Of a stretch of 32,993 nucleotides of DNA, positions 22,909 to 31,661 are shown in pieces; positions within the stretch are counted from its first letter, which is position 1; the number at the start of each line of letters is the position of its first letter. Source of the DNA: Chloroflexota bacterium (GTDB lineage: Bacteria; Chloroflexota; Dehalococcoidia; JACPPY01); contig JACPPY010000083.1 of assembly GCA_016190755.1 (NCBI GenBank), positions 1 through 32,993 on the forward strand, in the 5' to 3' direction. Made by a program: the position numbers and the translations under genes. The notes beneath the pieces were generated by a model. The model had not been told where the DNA came from, did not search any database, and worked only from the letters and a program-made list of their open reading frames with translations.

Positions 22909-25200
22909 ATGAAATCGCTATCGGACCTTTCGCTACAGAAAAGGGTCAACCTGCTGGTTGCCGTCAGCATGGTCGTCGGGCTCGGGTTGTTCTCATGGCT
23001 GGGGGTTCAATCGCTTAACGAAAGCACGGCGCGCGCCTTAGACGAGCGTTTGACCGTGGCGCGCATCGTGGCCAGCCACATGGATGAGACGCTCGATCAT
23101 GTTCTGGTCCACGTGGGCGAGGCAGCTCCCGGTATTTCCTCCGATGGTTTCGAACTGAGGGCGAAGGCACTGTCGGCCACATTGATGCAACTGGGCATTT
23201 CCATCGAGGGCATATACCTGTTCGATGGTGAAGGCAAAGTGCAAAGAACAGCGCCGCCTCTGGCCGGGACTTCCAACCCCAGCTTTTCGGGCCAGGCAGA
23301 TATACGTGACCTCCTGAACAAGGGAGTGCCTGCTATTTCGCCCCTGGTAAGCGCGCCGCTTACTGGAACGCCGGTGGCTTTCGCCGTAGTTCCGATACTG
23401 GGAGATGATGGCAAGGCAGTCTCCGCGTTAGGGGTCGCCATGGATGTCAACGGATCAGGTATTAGTGGATTCATCAAGCCGATAACTCTTGACAACACTG
23501 GATATACAGAAATCGTGGATACACACGGGATTGTGCTGGCAAGAACGACCCCTGGGCGTCCGCCTGACCCATTCGAGAGGAGCGACCATCCCGGACGTTT
23601 TGCACAGCTAATGGTGGAGGGTAAAGCTACGGTCCGCACGTGCCACAGGTGCCATGGTCCTGAGGACCAGCCCCAGAGACGGCGCGACGTACTGGCCTTC
23701 GCTCCCCTGTCTGTGGCGCCTTGGGGCGTTGCCATAAGACAGTCGGAGGAAGAGACTTTTGCCATCACACAGCAGTTGAAAAGGCGGCTGCTGATACTGG
23801 GCGCCATGTCTGTCGTCACGGTGTTTCTGATGGTGTGGATAGTCACTCAGGGCGTGGTGAGGCCGATCAAGATGCTTACAGCGGCTTCTGCCCGTGTGGC
23901 TGCGGGAGATTTCAGCGCTGTCGTTCCGCTGCGTCGCAAAGACGAAATAGGGAAGCTCAGCACAGCGTTCGCGGCCATGACTCGTGACCTTACGCAGGCA
24001 AGGGACGAAATCTGGACACGAAACCAGGAACTCATTGCACTCAACTCAATCGCTGCGACAGTCAGCCAGACGCTCAGACTGGAAGACGTGCTGGAGAAAG
24101 CGCTGCAAAAAGTGCTCGCGGTAGTACGAGCGGAAGCCGGATGCGTGTTTCTCCGCCGCCATCAGAGCAATGCGCTCACCCTGGTGAGTCGCATGGGGCC
24201 CTCGAAGCTGTTTCTCTGTGCATACGCCGAGTCAGTTGACTCTACCTGTGCCTGCCACCAGGTATTGCGCCTGGGTAGCACACTCGTTGTGAACGACGTT
24301 TCGCAATGCCCTGCTCTATCAGAAGCGCTTGCGACTGGAGATACCATATCTTGCTTTGTCTGCGTTCCGCTTCAGTCCAAAGACAAGACATTGGGGATTA
24401 TGAACCTGGCATGTTCGCGAGACTGGTGCATCACAGAGAGCGACTTAAGGCTTCTTCAATCTATCGGGAGACACGTTGGCTTGGCTGTGGAGAACTCATT
24501 GCTATTTGAGGAAACCAGGCGCGAGGAAGACCTGAGGGGCCAATTGCTTACTGCCGTCATAACCGCGCAAGAAGATGAACGCAGGCGCATCTCGCGCGAC
24601 CTCCACGATGGTCTTGCCCAGACGCTGACCGGTCTAATCATGAATATTGAGTCCGCCGAGAACCTGAGCACGCAGGAAAACTCTGGCCTTCACAGCAAGC
24701 TATCCGCTGTCCATAAGATAGCGGCGAACGCACTGGAAGACCTGCGCAAAATGATGAGAGGCCTCAGACCCACTGCGCTTGATGACCTGGGCCTGGTGGC
24801 TGCCATACAGTCCTACGCCGAGACTCATCTCGAGTCAGCAGGAATACACGTTGACTTCGCGACCGACGGACAACCCAAACGCCTGCCGCCCGCAGTCGAA
24901 ACAGCCCTGTTCCGGATTACTCAGGAAGCGATCAACAACATCACTAAGCACGCGCGAGCCAGGAACGTCAAGATTTCGTTGGCTACGGATAATGGCATGG
25001 TGAGGCTGACGGTCGAGGATGACGGCCATGGCTTTGATGTGAGGACATTGTCCGCCTACAATGGAACGCAATCACTGGGGCTCCTCGGCATGCGAGAACG
25101 GGCCACTCTTCTTTCTGGTACCTTCAAGGTCAGGTCAATTCCGGGCCAGGGAACATGTATCACGGTGGGGATACCGATATCAGACAAACAGAATGGATGA
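22909..25200 (+). CDS. NarX-like sensor histidine kinase with extracytoplasmic haem-c motif
   Basis: 763 residues. TM1 is about 13-33 and TM2 about 293-313. Between them lies a large Cache-like sensor domain with NTGYTEIVDTHGIVLARTTPG and then CHRCH (245-249), a CxxCH covalent haem-c site followed by the closing strand APLSVAPWGVAIRQ. A HAMP domain (about 314-366) and a GAF domain (about 375-535) follow; the GAF holds several cysteines (C437, C447, C449, C467, C482, C485) and H450. The kinase core is HisKA_3 with H566 in SRDLHDGLAQ and a HATPase domain with ITQEAINNITKHA and DDGHGFD. The gene is 14 bases before its NarL-type regulator. It probably senses redox state or a haem-binding gas or anion outside the membrane. 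Confidence 0.9.
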   Translation: MKSLSDLSLQKRVNLLVAVSMVVGLGLFSWLGVQSLNESTARALDERLTVARIVASHMDETLDHVLVHVGEAAPGISSDGFELRAKALSATLMQLGISIEGIYLFDGEGKVQRTAPPLAGTSNPSFSGQADIRDLLNKGVPAISPLVSAPLTGTPVAFAVVPILGDDGKAVSALGVAMDVNGSGISGFIKPITLDNTGYTEIVDTHGIVLARTTPGRPPDPFERSDHPGRFAQLMVEGKATVRTCHRCHGPEDQPQRRRDVLAFAPLSVAPWGVAIRQSEEETFAITQQLKRRLLILGAMSVVTVFLMVWIVTQGVVRPIKMLTAASARVAAGDFSAVVPLRRKDEIGKLSTAFAAMTRDLTQARDEIWTRNQELIALNSIAATVSQTLRLEDVLEKALQKVLAVVRAEAGCVFLRRHQSNALTLVSRMGPSKLFLCAYAESVDSTCACHQVLRLGSTLVVNDVSQCPALSEALATGDTISCFVCVPLQSKDKTLGIMNLACSRDWCITESDLRLLQSIGRHVGLAVENSLLFEETRREEDLRGQLLTAVITAQEDERRRISRDLHDGLAQTLTGLIMNIESAENLSTQENSGLHSKLSAVHKIAANALEDLRKMMRGLRPTALDDLGLVAAIQSYAETHLESAGIHVDFATDGQPKRLPPAVETALFRITQEAINNITKHARARNVKISLATDNGMVRLTVEDDGHGFDVRTLSAYNGTQSLGLLGMRERATLLSGTFKVRSIPGQGTCITVGIPISDKQNG

Positions 25201-25214
25201 CGAGGAGATGTAGT

Positions 25215-25877
25215 ATGCAAAAAAAGATTCGAGTTCTCATAGCTGACGACCATGCCATCATAAGGGATGGACTCCGGGCGATACTGGAGACTCAACCTGA
25301 TATCGAGGTCGTGGCGGAGGCTACCGAAGGACAAGAGGCGGTGGAAAAGACCGAACGGTTCAAACCCGACATAGTCATCATGGATGTGACAATGCCGGGA
25401 GTGAATGGACTGGAGGCCACGCGACTCATCAAGAGTGAAAACCCGGACGTGAAAATACTTGCCTTGACCATGCACGATAACCACCAGTACTTTTTCCAGA
25501 TGCTGCACGCCGGCGCCTCGGGTTACTTTATCAAAGGCGGCTCATCTGCGGAACTGGTATCGGCTATTAAGACGGTGTATCAGGGAGAGGTTTTCCTTTA
25601 CCCTTCGATGGCGAAGAAACTCCTTTCGGACTACGTCAAGAAGCTCCGGACGGGTACAGACAGGGACAGCACTGAACGACTCACCGACAGGGAGAGGGAG
25701 ATATTGAAGCTCGTCGCCGAAGGGCGCACAAACCAGGAAATAGCCGACATACTGGTGGTCAGCGTAAACACGGTGCAAACGCACCGGAGCCACGTTATGG
25801 CCAAGCTGGGCCTTCACAGCCGGACGGAGCTGGTGAAGTTCGCGATCAAGCAGGGTATCGTTGCGCTGGACAAATAA
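25215..25877 (+). CDS. NarL/FixJ-type response regulator
   Basis: 220 residues. Receiver domain with the acidic pair D11-D12, phospho-acceptor D57 in IVIMDVTMPG and a conserved lysine in GYFIKGGS. The C-terminal LuxR-type HTH (about 150-215) has LTDREREILKLVAEGRTNQEIA and SVNTVQTHRSHVMAKLGLHSRTEL. The frame is open to 25155, but GAGGAG before the ATG at 25215 and the MQKKIRVLIADDH N-terminus decide the start. It is the evident partner of the kinase just upstream and should activate or repress genes in response to it; the operon starting at 26078 is the nearest candidate target. Confidence 0.94.
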   Translation: MQKKIRVLIADDHAIIRDGLRAILETQPDIEVVAEATEGQEAVEKTERFKPDIVIMDVTMPGVNGLEATRLIKSENPDVKILALTMHDNHQYFFQMLHAGASGYFIKGGSSAELVSAIKTVYQGEVFLYPSMAKKLLSDYVKKLRTGTDRDSTERLTDREREILKLVAEGRTNQEIADILVVSVNTVQTHRSHVMAKLGLHSRTELVKFAIKQGIVALDK

Positions 25878-26077: not shown

Positions 26078-26827
26078 ATGGCAGGAAGGCTGAGAGCGCT
26101 CGTCGCTTCGGAACCGACTCAGGTAAGACATCTTCTTGTCGATGCTCTTGAGCGAGAGCCGGGGGTGGTTGTCGTCGGACAGGCTGACAGCGCTGTGAAG
26201 GCAGTAGGTCTGGCGCGCAGCCTGAGACCCGAGGTGGTGCTGGTTGATTTTCAGTTACCCCACCGCATCGGCCTTGATGCTGTTCCTCTTACCCGGACAA
26301 GCGGGTTGGACGCAGCGATGGACATATCGCGCGAGCTAGGAAAGACGAAGGTATTGTTGGTTACGAATGCCGGGCTCCCAGTCCAACAAGAGAGTGTCCT
26401 GGGAAAGGAAGTCGAGGCATTCCTGTATACGCAGACAGCCGCTGCCAGCCAGCCTGTAGACATACGGAAGCTGTTTGATGGAGGTGTCGTGGCTGACGGG
26501 CTGGTGTTCGCCAAGCTTGGTACAAGGGAGCGGATATCGGACTCAAACCGGATCATCGAGATCAGCGAGAAACTTGTCGCTTTCAGCAGCCTGGTCATAC
26601 TGGGAGGCCTTGGGTTGATGGTGACTCTCTTTCTGGCCAGTGCTGGTGTGTTCTTGGCCGCGGCGGGGGCCGCAGGCCTGCTTCTAGGCGTAACAGCAAG
26701 AGTTGCAGGCGGTTTGGCGCTCAAGCGGCGAAAATCTGCGTTGAAGCCTGAGGTGGTAAAGCCGAAATGGCTAAAGGTGGTGCGAGATGACGACCAGGAA
26801 CGTCCTCAAACAATGCTCGATATTTGA
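26078..26827 (+). CDS. Degenerate receiver domain fused to a membrane hairpin
   Basis: 249 residues. Residues 1-125 have the receiver fold (LRALVASEPTQVRHLLVDALE, VVVVGQADSAVKAV, RPEVVLVDFQLP). D57 at the phosphorylation position is kept, but the N-terminal acidic pair is reduced to S11-E12 and the usual lysine is replaced (AFLYTQT), so normal phosphorylation is doubtful. Two hydrophobic segments (about 169-190 and 191-212) place the C-terminus at the membrane, followed by a basic tail. There is no DNA-binding domain. GGGAGGTG precedes the ATG. It overlaps the next gene by 41 bases in another frame. I read it as a membrane-tethered signalling or scaffold protein; no known family name fits. 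Confidence 0.7.
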   Translation: MAGRLRALVASEPTQVRHLLVDALEREPGVVVVGQADSAVKAVGLARSLRPEVVLVDFQLPHRIGLDAVPLTRTSGLDAAMDISRELGKTKVLLVTNAGLPVQQESVLGKEVEAFLYTQTAAASQPVDIRKLFDGGVVADGLVFAKLGTRERISDSNRIIEISEKLVAFSSLVILGGLGLMVTLFLASAGVFLAAAGAAGLLLGVTARVAGGLALKRRKSALKPEVVKPKWLKVVRDDDQERPQTMLDI

Positions 26828-27248
26828 GGGCTTGAGCGAGATAGAGCTGGAGAAGATCATGGCTATCTCTCGATCAGCCCAATGGGAGGCGGGAGACGCT
26901 ATCTTCAGCGAGATGGGCAGCGCGGCGGAGATGTATGTCCTGGAAAAGGGCAGAGTAGCGCTCCAGATGTCTCTGCCTGCTGGCCAGGTGACCAGGAGGG
27001 TAACGGTGGATGTTGCCGGAAAGAACGAGGCGCTCGGCTGGTCCGCACTGGTCGAGCCCAAGCGGTACACGTTGAGCGCGATATGTCTGGAACCGACCAG
27101 CGTAGTGGCCGTTGATGGCGCTAAGCTCAGGTCGCTTCTCGAGGCAGATCAGGGTCTGGGATATAAGATACTGCGCCAGCTCATAAACGTGGTTGCCTCA
27201 AGATTGGACGAGACCAGGAAGGTATTGTTGAGCGAAAGGTTGGCGTGA
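26787..27248 (+). CDS. Stand-alone cyclic-nucleotide-binding-like domain protein
   Basis: 153 residues. A single CRP-type beta-barrel (ECSIFEGLSEIELEKI-like start, AGDAIFSEMGSAAEMYVLEKGRVAL, then NEALGWSALVEPKRYTLSAICLEPTSVVAVDG) and a C-terminal helix (GYKILRQLINVVASRLDETRKVLL), but no helix-turn-helix. The phosphate-binding cassette keeps the E-x2-G and the A-L but has RYTLSA rather than the RTA pattern, so cyclic nucleotide binding is uncertain. Such stand-alone domains recur beside bacterial redox gene clusters. It begins inside the end of the receiver-like gene, so the two are probably translationally coupled. Confidence 0.85.
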   Translation: MTTRNVLKQCSIFEGLSEIELEKIMAISRSAQWEAGDAIFSEMGSAAEMYVLEKGRVALQMSLPAGQVTRRVTVDVAGKNEALGWSALVEPKRYTLSAICLEPTSVVAVDGAKLRSLLEADQGLGYKILRQLINVVASRLDETRKVLLSERLA

Positions 27249-27317: not shown

Positions 27318-28106
27318 ATGACTATGGCGATTGTCTGGGTCGTGGTTGCTGTGGTGGTCGTATTGGCGTGGTTCGTGCTAGGCATTAGGGTTGTGCGCCA
27401 GTGGGAGGGAGGCGTCCTGCTCCGTTTCGGACGGTTTGTAGGAGTCAGGAAGCCTGGACTGAATTTGATAGTCCCGATAGTCGACCGGTTGGTGAATGTT
27501 GACACCCGCGTGATCACCACGATTCTCGAGCCACAAGAGGTAATCACCAAGGACAACGTGACCATCAAAGTAGATGCTGTGGTGTATTTCAAGGTGGTGG
27601 ATCCGGAGAAGGCGGTGATCAGTGTGGCGGACTTCGTTAGCGCCACAACTCAGATAGCGCTGACCACGCTGCGGAGCGTCCTTGGACAATCGGAATTGGA
27701 CGAGGTGCTGGCGCACCGCGACCGGATCAACCAGAGGTTGCGCGAGATAATCGACGGGCAGACTGAGGAACCTTGGGGGGTGCGTGTTACCGTGGCCGAG
27801 GTCAAGGATGTCCTCCTGCCGGAAAACATGCAGCGTGCAATGGCCCGACAGGCTGAAGCCGAACGAGAAAAGCGGGCGAAGATAGTACATGCAGAGGGTG
27901 AACGCCTGGCTGCTACTACCCTTGCCGAAGCCGCAACCATTATGGCCAAAGAGCCGGTGACGTTGCAGTTGCGCTACCTGCAATCTATGGTCGAGATGGC
28001 TGGCGAGCGGAACAGCACCATCATACCCATTCCACTTGATATTGCGGGAGCACTGCGAGGGCTGATGGAGCCTCGCGGAGATGGCAAACAAGTATTGACG
28101 AAGTAG
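27318..28106 (+). CDS. Slipin (SPFH/stomatin-family membrane protein)
   Basis: 262 residues. An N-terminal hydrophobic segment (about 4-24) is followed by the SPFH core: VVRQWEGGVLLRFGRFVGVRKPGLNLIVPIVDR, TRVITTILEPQEVITKDNVTIKVDAVVYFKV and LRSVLGQSELDEVLAHRD. A long charged coiled coil follows (ARQAEAEREKRAKIVHAEGE) and a short C-terminus. Slipins form cage-like oligomers on the cytoplasmic face and organise or protect membrane proteins, often with an NfeD protease partner; no nfeD is adjacent. Here it lies between the signalling genes and the redox subunits, suggesting a role in assembling that complex. GGAAGGAG and AAGGAA precede the ATG. Confidence 0.93.
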   Translation: MTMAIVWVVVAVVVVLAWFVLGIRVVRQWEGGVLLRFGRFVGVRKPGLNLIVPIVDRLVNVDTRVITTILEPQEVITKDNVTIKVDAVVYFKVVDPEKAVISVADFVSATTQIALTTLRSVLGQSELDEVLAHRDRINQRLREIIDGQTEEPWGVRVTVAEVKDVLLPENMQRAMARQAEAEREKRAKIVHAEGERLAATTLAEAATIMAKEPVTLQLRYLQSMVEMAGERNSTIIPIPLDIAGALRGLMEPRGDGKQVLTK

Positions 28107-28168
28107 ACTTGGCTACGGGTCGTTTGAAACTCCATTGATTGTTCAGAGAAACTACACGGGAGGTCAGG

Positions 28169-29020
28169 TTGGAGCTCACCAGGAGGGAACTTCTCAAGTG
28201 GCTTGGCGCCACAGGCATCGCAGTGACAGCTGCGAGTTATATACCTTGGCTGGGCAAGAGCGCGAGCGCTGAGCAAGCCACAACATCCGGCACGCAGACG
28301 ACCCGGTTGCGGCGATGGTCCATGGTAATCGACCTCAAGAGATGTGACGGCTGCATTGGGCTCAAGACGTCGCCGCAATGTACGCAGGCGTGCATCATGG
28401 GTCATCAAGCGCCAGTCGGCATGAAGTGGATCGAGGTATTCGAGTTCAAGCGGGAACTTGGCGGCAGCTATTTCATGCCTGTTCCCTGCCAGCATTGCGA
28501 GAATGCGCCGTGCACCAACGTTTGCCCTGTGGGTGCCACCTTCTCCACTCCAGAAGGGGTAGTATTGGTAGACCAGACGCGCTGCATCGGCTGCCGGCTG
28601 TGTATGGCGGCATGCCCCTACCAGCGTCGCTTCTTCAACTGGGGAGACCCTCAGGTGCCTCCGGAGACTCGATCTGCCAAGTATGACCTGCATCGACAGG
28701 TACCAGCAATCAAGGGTACGGTAATGAAGTGCTCCTTCTGTGTGGACATGGCCCGGAATGGGTCTGTGCCGTTCTGCGTCGCCGGATGCCCGAGGAGCGC
28801 TCTCTGGTTCGGCGACCTCGAAGAGGACATCGCCACAAACTCACGGGACATCGTCAAGCTATCTCGTTTCATGGCCGAAAACGAAGCCTTTCGATTCAAA
28901 GAGGAGCTGGGCACCCATCCACGGGTCTACTATTTGCCTGGCCATGGGCAGAACGTCGGGCGTAACCCGTATCAGACCGGCCTGCTCCCGGCGAGCTGGC
29001 CCTGGGGAGGCAAAAAATGA
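28169..29020 (+). CDS. Tat-exported four-cluster ferredoxin subunit (DmsB/NrfC-like)
   Basis: 283 residues. The N-terminus has a twin-arginine signal, LTRRELLKWLG, then a hydrophobic stretch and a SASA cleavage region, so the protein acts outside the cytoplasmic membrane. Four cysteine sets can bind four [4Fe-4S] clusters: RCDGC-x8-C-x3-C, CQHCENAPCTNVCP, RCIGCRLCMAACP and KCSFC-x11-C-x3-CP. It is the electron-wire subunit of a complex iron-sulfur enzyme and should pass electrons to or from the NrfD-like subunit, whose gene overlaps its stop (ATGA). The TTG at 28169 is chosen over an upstream TTG at 28139 because GGGAGGT precedes it and the Tat motif then sits at the very N-terminus. Confidence 0.92.
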   Translation: MELTRRELLKWLGATGIAVTAASYIPWLGKSASAEQATTSGTQTTRLRRWSMVIDLKRCDGCIGLKTSPQCTQACIMGHQAPVGMKWIEVFEFKRELGGSYFMPVPCQHCENAPCTNVCPVGATFSTPEGVVLVDQTRCIGCRLCMAACPYQRRFFNWGDPQVPPETRSAKYDLHRQVPAIKGTVMKCSFCVDMARNGSVPFCVAGCPRSALWFGDLEEDIATNSRDIVKLSRFMAENEAFRFKEELGTHPRVYYLPGHGQNVGRNPYQTGLLPASWPWGGKK

Positions 29021-30390
29021 ATGAAGCCCTAGAGCGGCTGGAAAGGACTGTCCTTCACCCCCTTACTCATACGACCATGACCTATCGGATAGTCGTGCTG
29101 GCGCTGGCGGCTGTAGCGGGGTGGGGTCTTTATGCCTTTTCCATCCAGATGAGGAACGGGTTGGTGGTGACAGGCATGCGCGACTACATCCTCTGGGGCC
29201 TGTACATCTCCAATTTCGTGTTCTTCATCGGCATAAGCCATGCCGGGACTCTCATCTCGGCGATCCTCAGGGTCACCAAGGCCGAATGGCGTGTCTCGAT
29301 CACGCGTATGGCGGAGTTCATAACTGTGGTGGCGCTAACCGTTGGCGGTGTCTTTCCCATAATTGACATGGGCAGGCCTGACCGCGTGCCGAGCATACTG
29401 TGGTTCGGGCGCTTCCAATCTCCCATAGTCTGGGACATTCTGGCGATAAGCACGTATCTGACTGGCAGTGCCATATACCTGTTCTTGCCCTTGATAGAAG
29501 ACCTGGCGATATGCCGTGACAAGTTGCCCAAAACGCTCTCACCTTGGCGGCGGCTCTTCTATCGTGTGCTGTCGGTCGGCTGGCGAGGGACCGACTCGCA
29601 GAAGAAGTCGCTGTTCACGGCGATGGGCATCATGGCCATACTCATCATCCCTATCGCGGTGTCCGTACATACGGTGGTGTCTTTCATTTTCGCCATGACT
29701 CTCAGGTCAGGCTGGAACAGCACCGTATACGGCATCTACTTCGTGGCTGGCGCCATCTTCTCCGGCATCGCGACCATTATTATAGTGATGGCAATACTGC
29801 GGCGTGCCTTCCACCTCGAAGAGTACATAACATCAAAGCAGTTCGTGTACCTGGGTTACATGCTCGGCGCCTTCGTGTTGATAATGGCCTACTTCAATCT
29901 GCTGGAGTTCCTCGTGCCCGGCTACAAGAACGAGGAAGGCGAAGGCTTCCTGTTGCAGTCGATGCTGGCCGGGAAGTATGCGTGGATGTATTGGGCCTAC
30001 ATAGTAGCTGGCCTGGGGATTCCCGCTTTCATTATACTAAACCCGCGTACCAGGAACGTGAAGGGGTTGGTAATAGCATCCATACTCGTTAACATAGCGA
30101 TGTGGTTGGAGCGGTTCCTGGTCGTGGTCCCAGCCCTTGATGTGCCACTCCTGCCGCGTGAGGCAGTAACTTATGTTCCCACTTGGGTGGAGTGGTCGAT
30201 AATCGCAGGGGCGTTTGCCGAGTTCTCCTTGATAATCGCCGTGTTCGCCAAGTTATTTCCCGTGATTTCCATATGGGAGGTGAAAGAGCAAATGGAGCAG
30301 AAGGAGCACGTCGCGGCTGAAGCCGAAACATCTCCAGCCACCACACATGGTTTCGGGGAACGAGCCAAGACAAGCCCCTTCGGCACCTAA
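29017..30390 (+). CDS. NrfD/ActC-like quinone-interacting membrane subunit
   Basis: 457 residues with about ten membrane segments. Stretches such as ILWGLYISNFVFFIGISHAG, ISAILRVTKAEWR, TRMAEFITVVAL, GGVFPIIDMGRPDR, SPIVWDILAISTYL and SVHTVVSFIFAM closely match the ActC/HybB type of NrfD proteins found in alternative complex III and polysulfide-reductase-like enzymes, which oxidise or reduce membrane quinone. The C-terminal 40 residues are charged and cytoplasmic. It overlaps the ferredoxin gene by 4 bases and is followed after 17 bases by an Ig-like protein gene. No molybdopterin subunit, pentahaem cytochrome or second NrfD copy is present, so it is not a standard alternative complex III. 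Confidence 0.93.
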   Translation: MNEALERLERTVLHPLTHTTMTYRIVVLALAAVAGWGLYAFSIQMRNGLVVTGMRDYILWGLYISNFVFFIGISHAGTLISAILRVTKAEWRVSITRMAEFITVVALTVGGVFPIIDMGRPDRVPSILWFGRFQSPIVWDILAISTYLTGSAIYLFLPLIEDLAICRDKLPKTLSPWRRLFYRVLSVGWRGTDSQKKSLFTAMGIMAILIIPIAVSVHTVVSFIFAMTLRSGWNSTVYGIYFVAGAIFSGIATIIIVMAILRRAFHLEEYITSKQFVYLGYMLGAFVLIMAYFNLLEFLVPGYKNEEGEGFLLQSMLAGKYAWMYWAYIVAGLGIPAFIILNPRTRNVKGLVIASILVNIAMWLERFLVVVPALDVPLLPREAVTYVPTWVEWSIIAGAFAEFSLIIAVFAKLFPVISIWEVKEQMEQKEHVAAEAETSPATTHGFGERAKTSPFGT

Positions 30391-30989: not shown

Positions 30990-31661
30990 TTGAAACGATA
31001 TGAACAGCCGAGACCGGTTAACGTAACTCCGATAAAGCCGCCGATTCCGGTGAGATACACGTCTACCGCCAGGGGAAGGCAGTCTGACCGGCGCAATGCG
31101 CTCTTCGCCCTGTTTCTTATAGGGTTCGTGCTCACCGTTTCGACGACGGTCATCACCATGATCATACGCGGGCCTGACACACATGGCAGTATCTGGAATG
31201 GCGTTCTTCCCGGATATAACCGTACGGAACCAATGTATGTAGTATCTGAACCCGGGCCGGCGCAGCTTCCGCCGTTACCTCCCGCGCAAACCCCAACGCC
31301 TCCTGTGCAAACAACAACCCCAGGGCAGACGACAACTCCAGGGCAGACGACAACTCCTGCCCCGAGCACTACTCCTGTTGTCGCCAAGGATGTTTCCTTC
31401 TCGCAGGACGTTCTGCCTATCCTGAAGGCAGGTTGCTCCTGCCATATACAGGCAATTGCCATGAAGGGTGTCGTTGTGGACTCCTACCAGGCCTTGACTA
31501 AGGCGCAGCCGCTCCTGCTGGTCCCTGGGAAACCGGATGACAGCCTGCTTGTAAGTGTGCTGCAAGGCAAACCGACGCAAATGCCCCCTTCAGGGCCGTT
31601 GTCGGAGGAAAAGATCAAGGCCATTAAGGATTGGATATCCCAGGGGGCGAAGAATAACTAG
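30990..31661 (+). CDS. Membrane-anchored cytochrome-c-like protein with CSCH motif
   Basis: 223 residues. One membrane helix (about 34-54), then an extracytoplasmic Pro/Thr/Gln-rich linker (about 88-128) containing a tandem repeat, then a domain of about 90 residues with the plan of planctomycete-type cytochrome c domains: VLPILKAGCSCHIQ, VVVDSYQALTK, PGKPDDSLLVSVLQG, TQMPPSGPLSEEKIKAIKDWISQGA. Met in QMPP is the expected sixth haem ligand. The haem-binding site, normally CxxCH, reads CSCH, one residue short. The start is TTG at 30990 with GGAGG 9 bases ahead. Last gene of the probable operon; it could carry electrons to or from the ferredoxin/NrfD pair if haem is bound. Confidence 0.82.
   Translation: MKRYEQPRPVNVTPIKPPIPVRYTSTARGRQSDRRNALFALFLIGFVLTVSTTVITMIIRGPDTHGSIWNGVLPGYNRTEPMYVVSEPGPAQLPPLPPAQTPTPPVQTTTPGQTTTPGQTTTPAPSTTPVVAKDVSFSQDVLPILKAGCSCHIQAIAMKGVVVDSYQALTKAQPLLLVPGKPDDSLLVSVLQGKPTQMPPSGPLSEEKIKAIKDWISQGAKNN
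31321..31356 (+). repeat. Tandem 18-base repeat in the cytochrome linker
   Basis: Two perfect copies of CAGGGCAGACGACAACTC (31321-31338, 31339-31356) encode the repeated GQTTTP unit of the Thr/Pro linker. The number of copies could vary between strains and change linker length without shifting the frame. Confidence 0.85.

Follow-up and report, generated by a model that had tools for sequence, protein, structure and literature searches.

A Putative Haem-c-Binding Double-Cache Sensor Family of Histidine Kinases Associated with Electron-Transfer Genes

We present evidence which makes it fairly probable that covalent attachment of haem c evolved twice in the Cache superfamily, the second time in the membrane-proximal module of the dCache_1 domains of histidine kinases. 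The resulting "dCache_heme" redox or gas sensors would be spread over at least four phyla, would include a derived CxxCK branch with an NrfA-like lysine and would regulate electron-transfer operons that encode NrfD-like proteins and multihaem cytochromes. The double Cache (dCache) domain is a sensor-domain type not previously reported to hold haem; our literature search for dCache domains with haem c yielded nothing other than PMC12889525 and papers on known families, with subscription papers mostly outside its scope, and earlier descriptions are possible. A February 2026 preprint introduced the single-Cache DUF3365 domain as the first of the Cache type to carry a covalent cofactor (PMC12889525). 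The family described here would be a separate case of a covalent cofactor, in the double-Cache class and in a phylum from which sensors of this kind are said to be missing.

Results

A Histidine Kinase with a CHRCH Motif in Its Double-Cache Sensor Domain

The window (the whole stretch of 32,993 nucleotides that was analysed) encodes a 763-amino-acid histidine kinase (positions 22909-25200, + strand) with the domain order TM1 - dCache_1 - TM2 - HAMP - GAF - HisKA_3 - HATPase_c, all domains being assigned by Pfam matches over the cut-offs. The codons TGC CAC AGG TGC CAT at positions 23641-23655 (+ strand), in frame with this open reading frame, specify CHRCH (residues 245-249), which conforms to the CxxCH motif of haem c attachment. 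Hydropathy analysis revealed hydrophobic segments on both sides of the motif, at residues 15-33 and 294-312 (the latter being the second membrane segment, positions 23788-23844, + strand, which corresponds to helix 285-315 of the structural model). Since CHRCH is flanked by membrane segments, it is located on the extracytoplasmic side; the initial annotation, which placed the motif between two membrane segments of the kinase, is confirmed in this respect by both sequence and hydropathy. The two cysteines of CHRCH are the only ones in the sensor. CxxCH appeared in 0.02% of shuffled sensor regions and in 0.4% of trials when the entire protein was shuffled, and these rates, together with the conservation among relatives described below, rule out a chance occurrence.

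The extracytoplasmic sensor (residues 34-279, positions 23008-23745, + strand) belongs to dCache_1 (PF02743; 46.9 bits against the curated cut-off of 45, Pfam E-value of 3.4e-12). The AF2 model of the sensor (pLDDT 80, pTM 0.74), which was based on an alignment of six rows taken from the window and related loci, and its Foldseek matches support a double-Cache fold between two membrane helices, and what had been described as a Cache-like domain can thus be specified as a double Cache. The top Foldseek matches, as well as those found by HMMER in the PDB, are ordinary dCache sensor domains and receptors. KinD (4jgo), PctA (5ltx) and rpHK1S-Z16 (3lif) are ordinary dCache_1 sensors that share both the fold and the Pfam family with the window sensor. 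To our knowledge, the known members of this group bind small ligands and carry no covalent cofactor.

In the model, the motif occupies the end of β-strand 241-246 and the loop before strand 259-266, i.e., the β3-β4 region of the membrane-proximal Cache module. Between it and the second membrane segment there are two strands, and its earlier placement just before the last strand of the domain is therefore not upheld. The designation of the kinase as NarX-like is appropriate for the HisKA_3/HATPase core, which is of the NarX type and, as in NarX and NarQ, has a LuxR-type partner, but not for the sensor domain, which is unrelated to that of NarX/NarQ. The NarX and NarQ equivalog models scored 98 and 118 bits on the window kinase, compared to cut-offs of 578 and 553, and matched the kinase core only.

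Conservation of the Motif

A profile was created from six sensors, whose identities to the window sensor are ca. 31-39%, and used to search 400 Chloroflexota genomes, of which 49 had matches, and 60 close relatives. From the Nitrospirota phylum, 346 genomes were searched in the same way, with matches in 60 of them, as were 345 Desulfobacterota genomes and 396 Acidobacteriota genomes. When the Chloroflexota set was considered along with one Nitrospirota sequence, the motif was found in 46 of 103 sensors, among the best-scoring ones. The pooled set of 163 related domains contained 77 domains with CxxCH, four with CxxCK, two with CxxCT and 79 with none of these; one CxxCP domain was kept out of the motif groups. 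Domains with CxxCH come from Chloroflexota, Nitrospirota and Desulfobacterota and, rarely, from Acidobacteriota. Conservation in homologues had been proposed as a check on the haem c site, and, as can be seen, CxxCH is kept in homologues from four phyla and follows one lineage of sensor domains.

Both cysteines and the histidine of the motif are invariant in the CxxCH set by definition. At other positions, W272 and G207 are present in 100%, H246 in ca. 99% (CHxCH in 75 of the 77 domains), F264 and D204 in 97% and H227 in 88%. The strongly conserved positions of the haem-type set are concentrated near the motif, within the membrane-proximal module. The additional histidine of CHxCH is not universal, since the two Acidobacteriota matches carry CTTCH and CTSCH. 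H227, the last residue of an S-D-H tripeptide singled out by its conservation (residues 225-227, positions 23581-23589, + strand), is a candidate for the second axial ligand or for a residue on the distal side. A histidine ligand at this position cannot be obligatory, since 9 of the 77 CxxCH domains have tyrosine or arginine instead. One Nitrospirota relative (L231) has lost the motif and kept the operon.

Origin of the Haem-Type Domains and Offshoots of the Motif

Phylogenetic trees were built with the motif columns masked, so that the motif score itself gives no proof of relatedness. On the tree of the 103 sensors, only 2 changes between haem-type and other domains were counted, compared to a mean of 34 after shuffling. 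When the H227 columns were removed as well, the tree of 163 domains again gave 2 changes, compared to a shuffled mean of 54; such counts are blind to gain versus loss, and tree support is by SH-aLRT only. The haem-type domains thus form almost one clade, which corresponds to a near-single origin.

Two small offshoots of the tree carry altered motifs. Four Desulfobacterota proteins (L232-L235), grouped with 94% support, have CHRCK in place of CHxCH, which recalls the lysine-ligated haem of NrfA. In all four, H227 is replaced by glutamine or arginine, and a new cysteine is located three residues before this position. The other offshoot (L109 and L111) has CLGCT at the motif and lacks H227, i.e., the cysteine pair is kept and both histidines are lost. 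In the non-haem relatives, H227 is kept in 61% and a histidine is present at position 260 in 52%, whereas the haem-type domains have D, E or N at the latter position. Proteins L010, L159 and L160 are examples of non-haem sisters, which often keep H227 along with the histidine at position 260. Judging from sequence, these two residues of the sisters may form a site for a metal or a ligand which predates the haem. The availability of non-haem dCache sisters and of CxxCK and CxxCT offshoots makes the gain and change of the cofactor directly testable.

Haem Supply and Paralogues in the Host Genome

The haem c proposal had been made conditional on the host having a cytochrome c maturation system. 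The host genome (2.09 Mb in 98 contigs, 81% complete) does encode CcmE, CcmF (CcmF_C) and CcmH, in one cluster and over the cut-offs. Thus, two features of c-type haem proteins are both present, namely an extracytoplasmic CxxCH and a maturation system in the host, and the reading of the domain as a haem c sensor is, overall, supported by the conservation of the motif in homologues and by the Ccm genes. Among Chloroflexota genomes with haem-type kinases, a Cytochrom_C_asm gene was found in 19 of 21 (the other two genomes are 88% and 74% complete); it was also found in 14 of 23 genomes picked as lacking the kinase.

Three other proteins of the host are full-length relatives of the sensor, and a fourth, which is more divergent, was matched in pieces. 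Paralogue L002 carries CHNCH and adjoins genes for an SPFH protein, a protein with 10 CxxCH motifs, a 4Fe-4S protein and NrfD. Paralogue L003 carries CHSGCH, i.e., a motif with CX3CH spacing, and adjoins genes for a protein with 9 CxxCH motifs and a cytochrome b561-like protein. Neither CxxCH nor CX3CH is present in paralogues L004 and L005.

Gene Neighbourhood

The kinase gene is followed, on the + strand, by genes for its partner, a LuxR/NarL-type response regulator (25155-25877; Response_reg 2.8e-30, GerE 3.4e-21), a receiver-like protein (26078-26827; weak Response_reg match), a cyclic-nucleotide-binding-domain protein (26787-27248; PF00027, 1e-11), an SPFH/Band 7 protein (27318-28106; PF01145, 2.8e-36), a Tat-type 4Fe-4S protein similar to DsrO/NrfC (28139-29020; Pfam; NCBIfam DsrO at 183.8 bits, below the cut-off of 200), an NrfD/DsrP-like membrane subunit (29017-30390; PF03916, 2.6e-34; NCBIfam DsrP at 121 bits, below the cut-off of 350), and, beyond an Ig-like gene, a cytochrome c-like protein (30990-31661; weak PSCyt1 match). 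The initial annotation had the kinase directly upstream of an electron-transfer operon; the Fe-S and NrfD genes are indeed downstream and on the same strand, but the genes of the LuxR-type regulator and of the receiver-like, cyclic-nucleotide-binding and SPFH proteins lie in between. In the cytochrome c-like product, CSCH replaces CxxCH: the sequence GCSCH is one residue short of the motif, which its relative at L270 has as NCVGCH. This is either a degenerate site or a sequence error.

Much of the series is found again at loci L266, L270 and L008, and the SPFH gene is present at these three loci and next to a paralogue in the window's own genome (L090). A response regulator adjoins most relatives of the kinase. 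In many Nitrospirota and Desulfobacterota genomes, the relative comes after genes for a membrane-anchored cytochrome with 9-13 haems and for cytochrome b561, often with 4Fe-4S and NrfD genes; a frequent order in Nitrospirota is 4Fe-4S, NrfD, 13-haem cytochrome, cytochrome b561, kinase, regulator. At loci L279-L291, a recurring Nitrospirota operon consists of genes for a tetrahaem-like protein, a 4Fe-4S protein, NrfD, a membrane-anchored cytochrome with 13 CxxCH motifs, cytochrome b561, the haem-type kinase and the regulator.

Redox neighbours (a multihaem cytochrome, cytochrome b561 or NrfD) were found at 29 of 43 haem-type loci, compared to 5 of 18 loci of the non-haem type (Fisher p = 0.0098, an optimistic value, as p-values of this comparison are, since the loci are related; the draws were also uneven). 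When only Chloroflexota were considered, the contrast was not significant (14 of 27 haem-type versus 5 of 18 non-haem loci, p = 0.13). Electron-transfer genes adjoin relatives of the kinase in at least three phyla, and the neighbourhood ties the family to electron-transfer chains with multihaem cytochromes and NrfD in uncultured anaerobes.

Relation to Known Haem Sensors

The sCache_heme family (PF11845, DUF3365 or Tll0287-like), which includes Geobacter GSU0582 and GSU0935, has CxxCH between β3 and β4 of a single Cache domain (PMC12889525; reviewed in PMC8396549). Like these proteins, the window sensor has an extracytoplasmic Cache fold joined to HAMP and signalling outputs, and its motif is in the β3-β4 region, as judged from AF2 strands 241-246 and 259-266 and the description in PMC12889525. 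In contrast to the single-Cache family, the window sensor carries its CxxCH in the second of two Cache modules and belongs to another Pfam family. In addition, sCache_heme is reported to be rare or absent in Chloroflexota (PMC12889525), whereas the window family is present in many genomes of this phylum.

The shared position of CxxCH between β3 and β4 would be accounted for if the window sensor were a divergent member of PF11845 that spread into Chloroflexota, but the likelihood of this is very small. PF11845 had no match in the window sensor at E ≤ 10 and none in its own genome; the search itself works, since it matched 29 of 59 Desulfobacterota genomes, compared to 0 of 14 named genomes. A profile created from 26 Desulfobacterota PF11845 domains was aligned by hhalign to the second module of haem-type dCache domains over only 12 columns, at CxxCH, with a probability of 20%. 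In contrast, the haem-type and non-haem dCache second modules match over 99 columns (E = 5e-33). Membership in PF11845 is rejected in view of the lack of a profile match and of detectable homology outside the motif. Since the second module matches non-haem dCache domains and meets sCache_heme only at CxxCH, the motif was probably acquired independently, by convergence on the same position within the fold. It follows that the Geobacter-type precedent invoked earlier is valid insofar as such haem c sensors are known, but they are single-Cache PF11845 proteins, which the window sensor does not match.

The nearest functional precedent is DcrA, a chemoreceptor of Desulfovibrio vulgaris with a periplasmic haem c, proposed to be a redox or oxygen sensor according to the citation of Fu et al. 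1994 in PMC8396549. Like DcrA, the kinase would be a membrane receptor with a periplasmic c-type haem domain, the output being that of a chemoreceptor in DcrA and of a histidine kinase in the window protein. DcrA may be the founding member of the haem-type dCache family. A DNA pattern for CHHCH, used to look for DcrA in Desulfobacterota, retrieved radical-SAM-like genes, cytochrome genes and genes of other sensors; the dCache profile matched none of them. Three Desulfobacterota proteins of ca. 500 amino acids (L351, L365 and L371) have CHHCHG...LGG in a sensor-like region and appear to represent another type of haem c sensor.

Discussion

We consider it reasonably likely that the kinase is a covalent-haem redox (or NO) sensor which controls the neighbouring electron-transfer genes. 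The motif with its conservation and near-single origin, the fold, the Ccm genes and the gene neighbourhood are computational findings, and the parts of the proposal that go beyond them differ in strength: attachment of haem to CHxCH is highly probable, redox sensing is an evenly balanced prospect, and NO sensing is only tentatively suggested. The host Ccm system would attach c-type haem to CHxCH in the membrane-proximal dCache module, outside of the membrane, with H249 as the presumed proximal ligand and H227 as a possible distal ligand or a residue lining the distal side. The local cytochrome or quinol chain would then alter the oxidation state of the haem, or NO would bind. Either event would move the final strands of the sensor together with the second membrane helix. 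HAMP and GAF would relay this movement to the HisKA_3/HATPase core, from which the signal would reach the LuxR-type regulator, and the latter would adjust its putative targets, the adjoining electron-transfer genes. A covalent haem in the module nearest to the membrane would be in a good position to couple the oxidation or ligation state of its iron to the second membrane helix, HAMP and the kinase core. For known haem c Cache domains, NO binding or a redox-dependent change of spin state is on record (PMC12889525, PMC8396549), and the haem c sensors of Geobacter switch ligation with redox (PMC8396549). As relatives of the kinase are linked to cytochrome operons again and again, we rank redox feedback on electron transfer first and NO second.

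In a sensor of NO (or CO) rather than of redox state, an open or weak sixth site would bind NO, and the regulator would induce a nitrosative response. Signalling-type sCache_heme domains hold NO tightly (PMC12889525), and the replacement of H227 by tyrosine or arginine in some members suits an exchangeable distal side. We nevertheless regard such a sensor as rather unlikely, since the NO sensors that were measured belong to another Cache family, and the relatives of the kinase adjoin electron-transfer operons and not recognised NO-detoxification genes. Alternatively, CHxCH and H227 could form a site without haem, i.e., bind a metal ion (Zn, Fe or Cu) or act as a disulphide/thiol redox switch. 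H246 and H227 are conserved beyond the need of haem attachment, the frequent retention of H227 and of a histidine at position 260 in non-haem relatives hints at an older histidine-based site, and the CxxCK and CxxCT offshoots point the same way; the motif is, however, exactly the one recognised by Ccm, is located outside of the membrane in genomes with Ccm and often has multihaem cytochromes nearby, which makes a site of this kind improbable. It is also quite improbable that the haem is structural or electron-conducting and that the kinase responds to a small molecule which the membrane-distal module binds in the manner of ordinary dCache receptors: amino-acid- and carboxylate-binding dCache domains are indeed among the Foldseek matches, but conservation in the haem-type set is centred on the membrane-proximal module near the motif.

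The redox sensor that we favour may have a second site in the same protein. The GAF domain of the window kinase contains a cysteine cluster, C438...CACHQVL...NDVSQC467 (positions 24220-24309, + strand), the pattern of which is kept in close relatives. By its sequence, this cluster may be a cytoplasmic Fe-S site, in which case the kinase would be a possible dual redox sensor.
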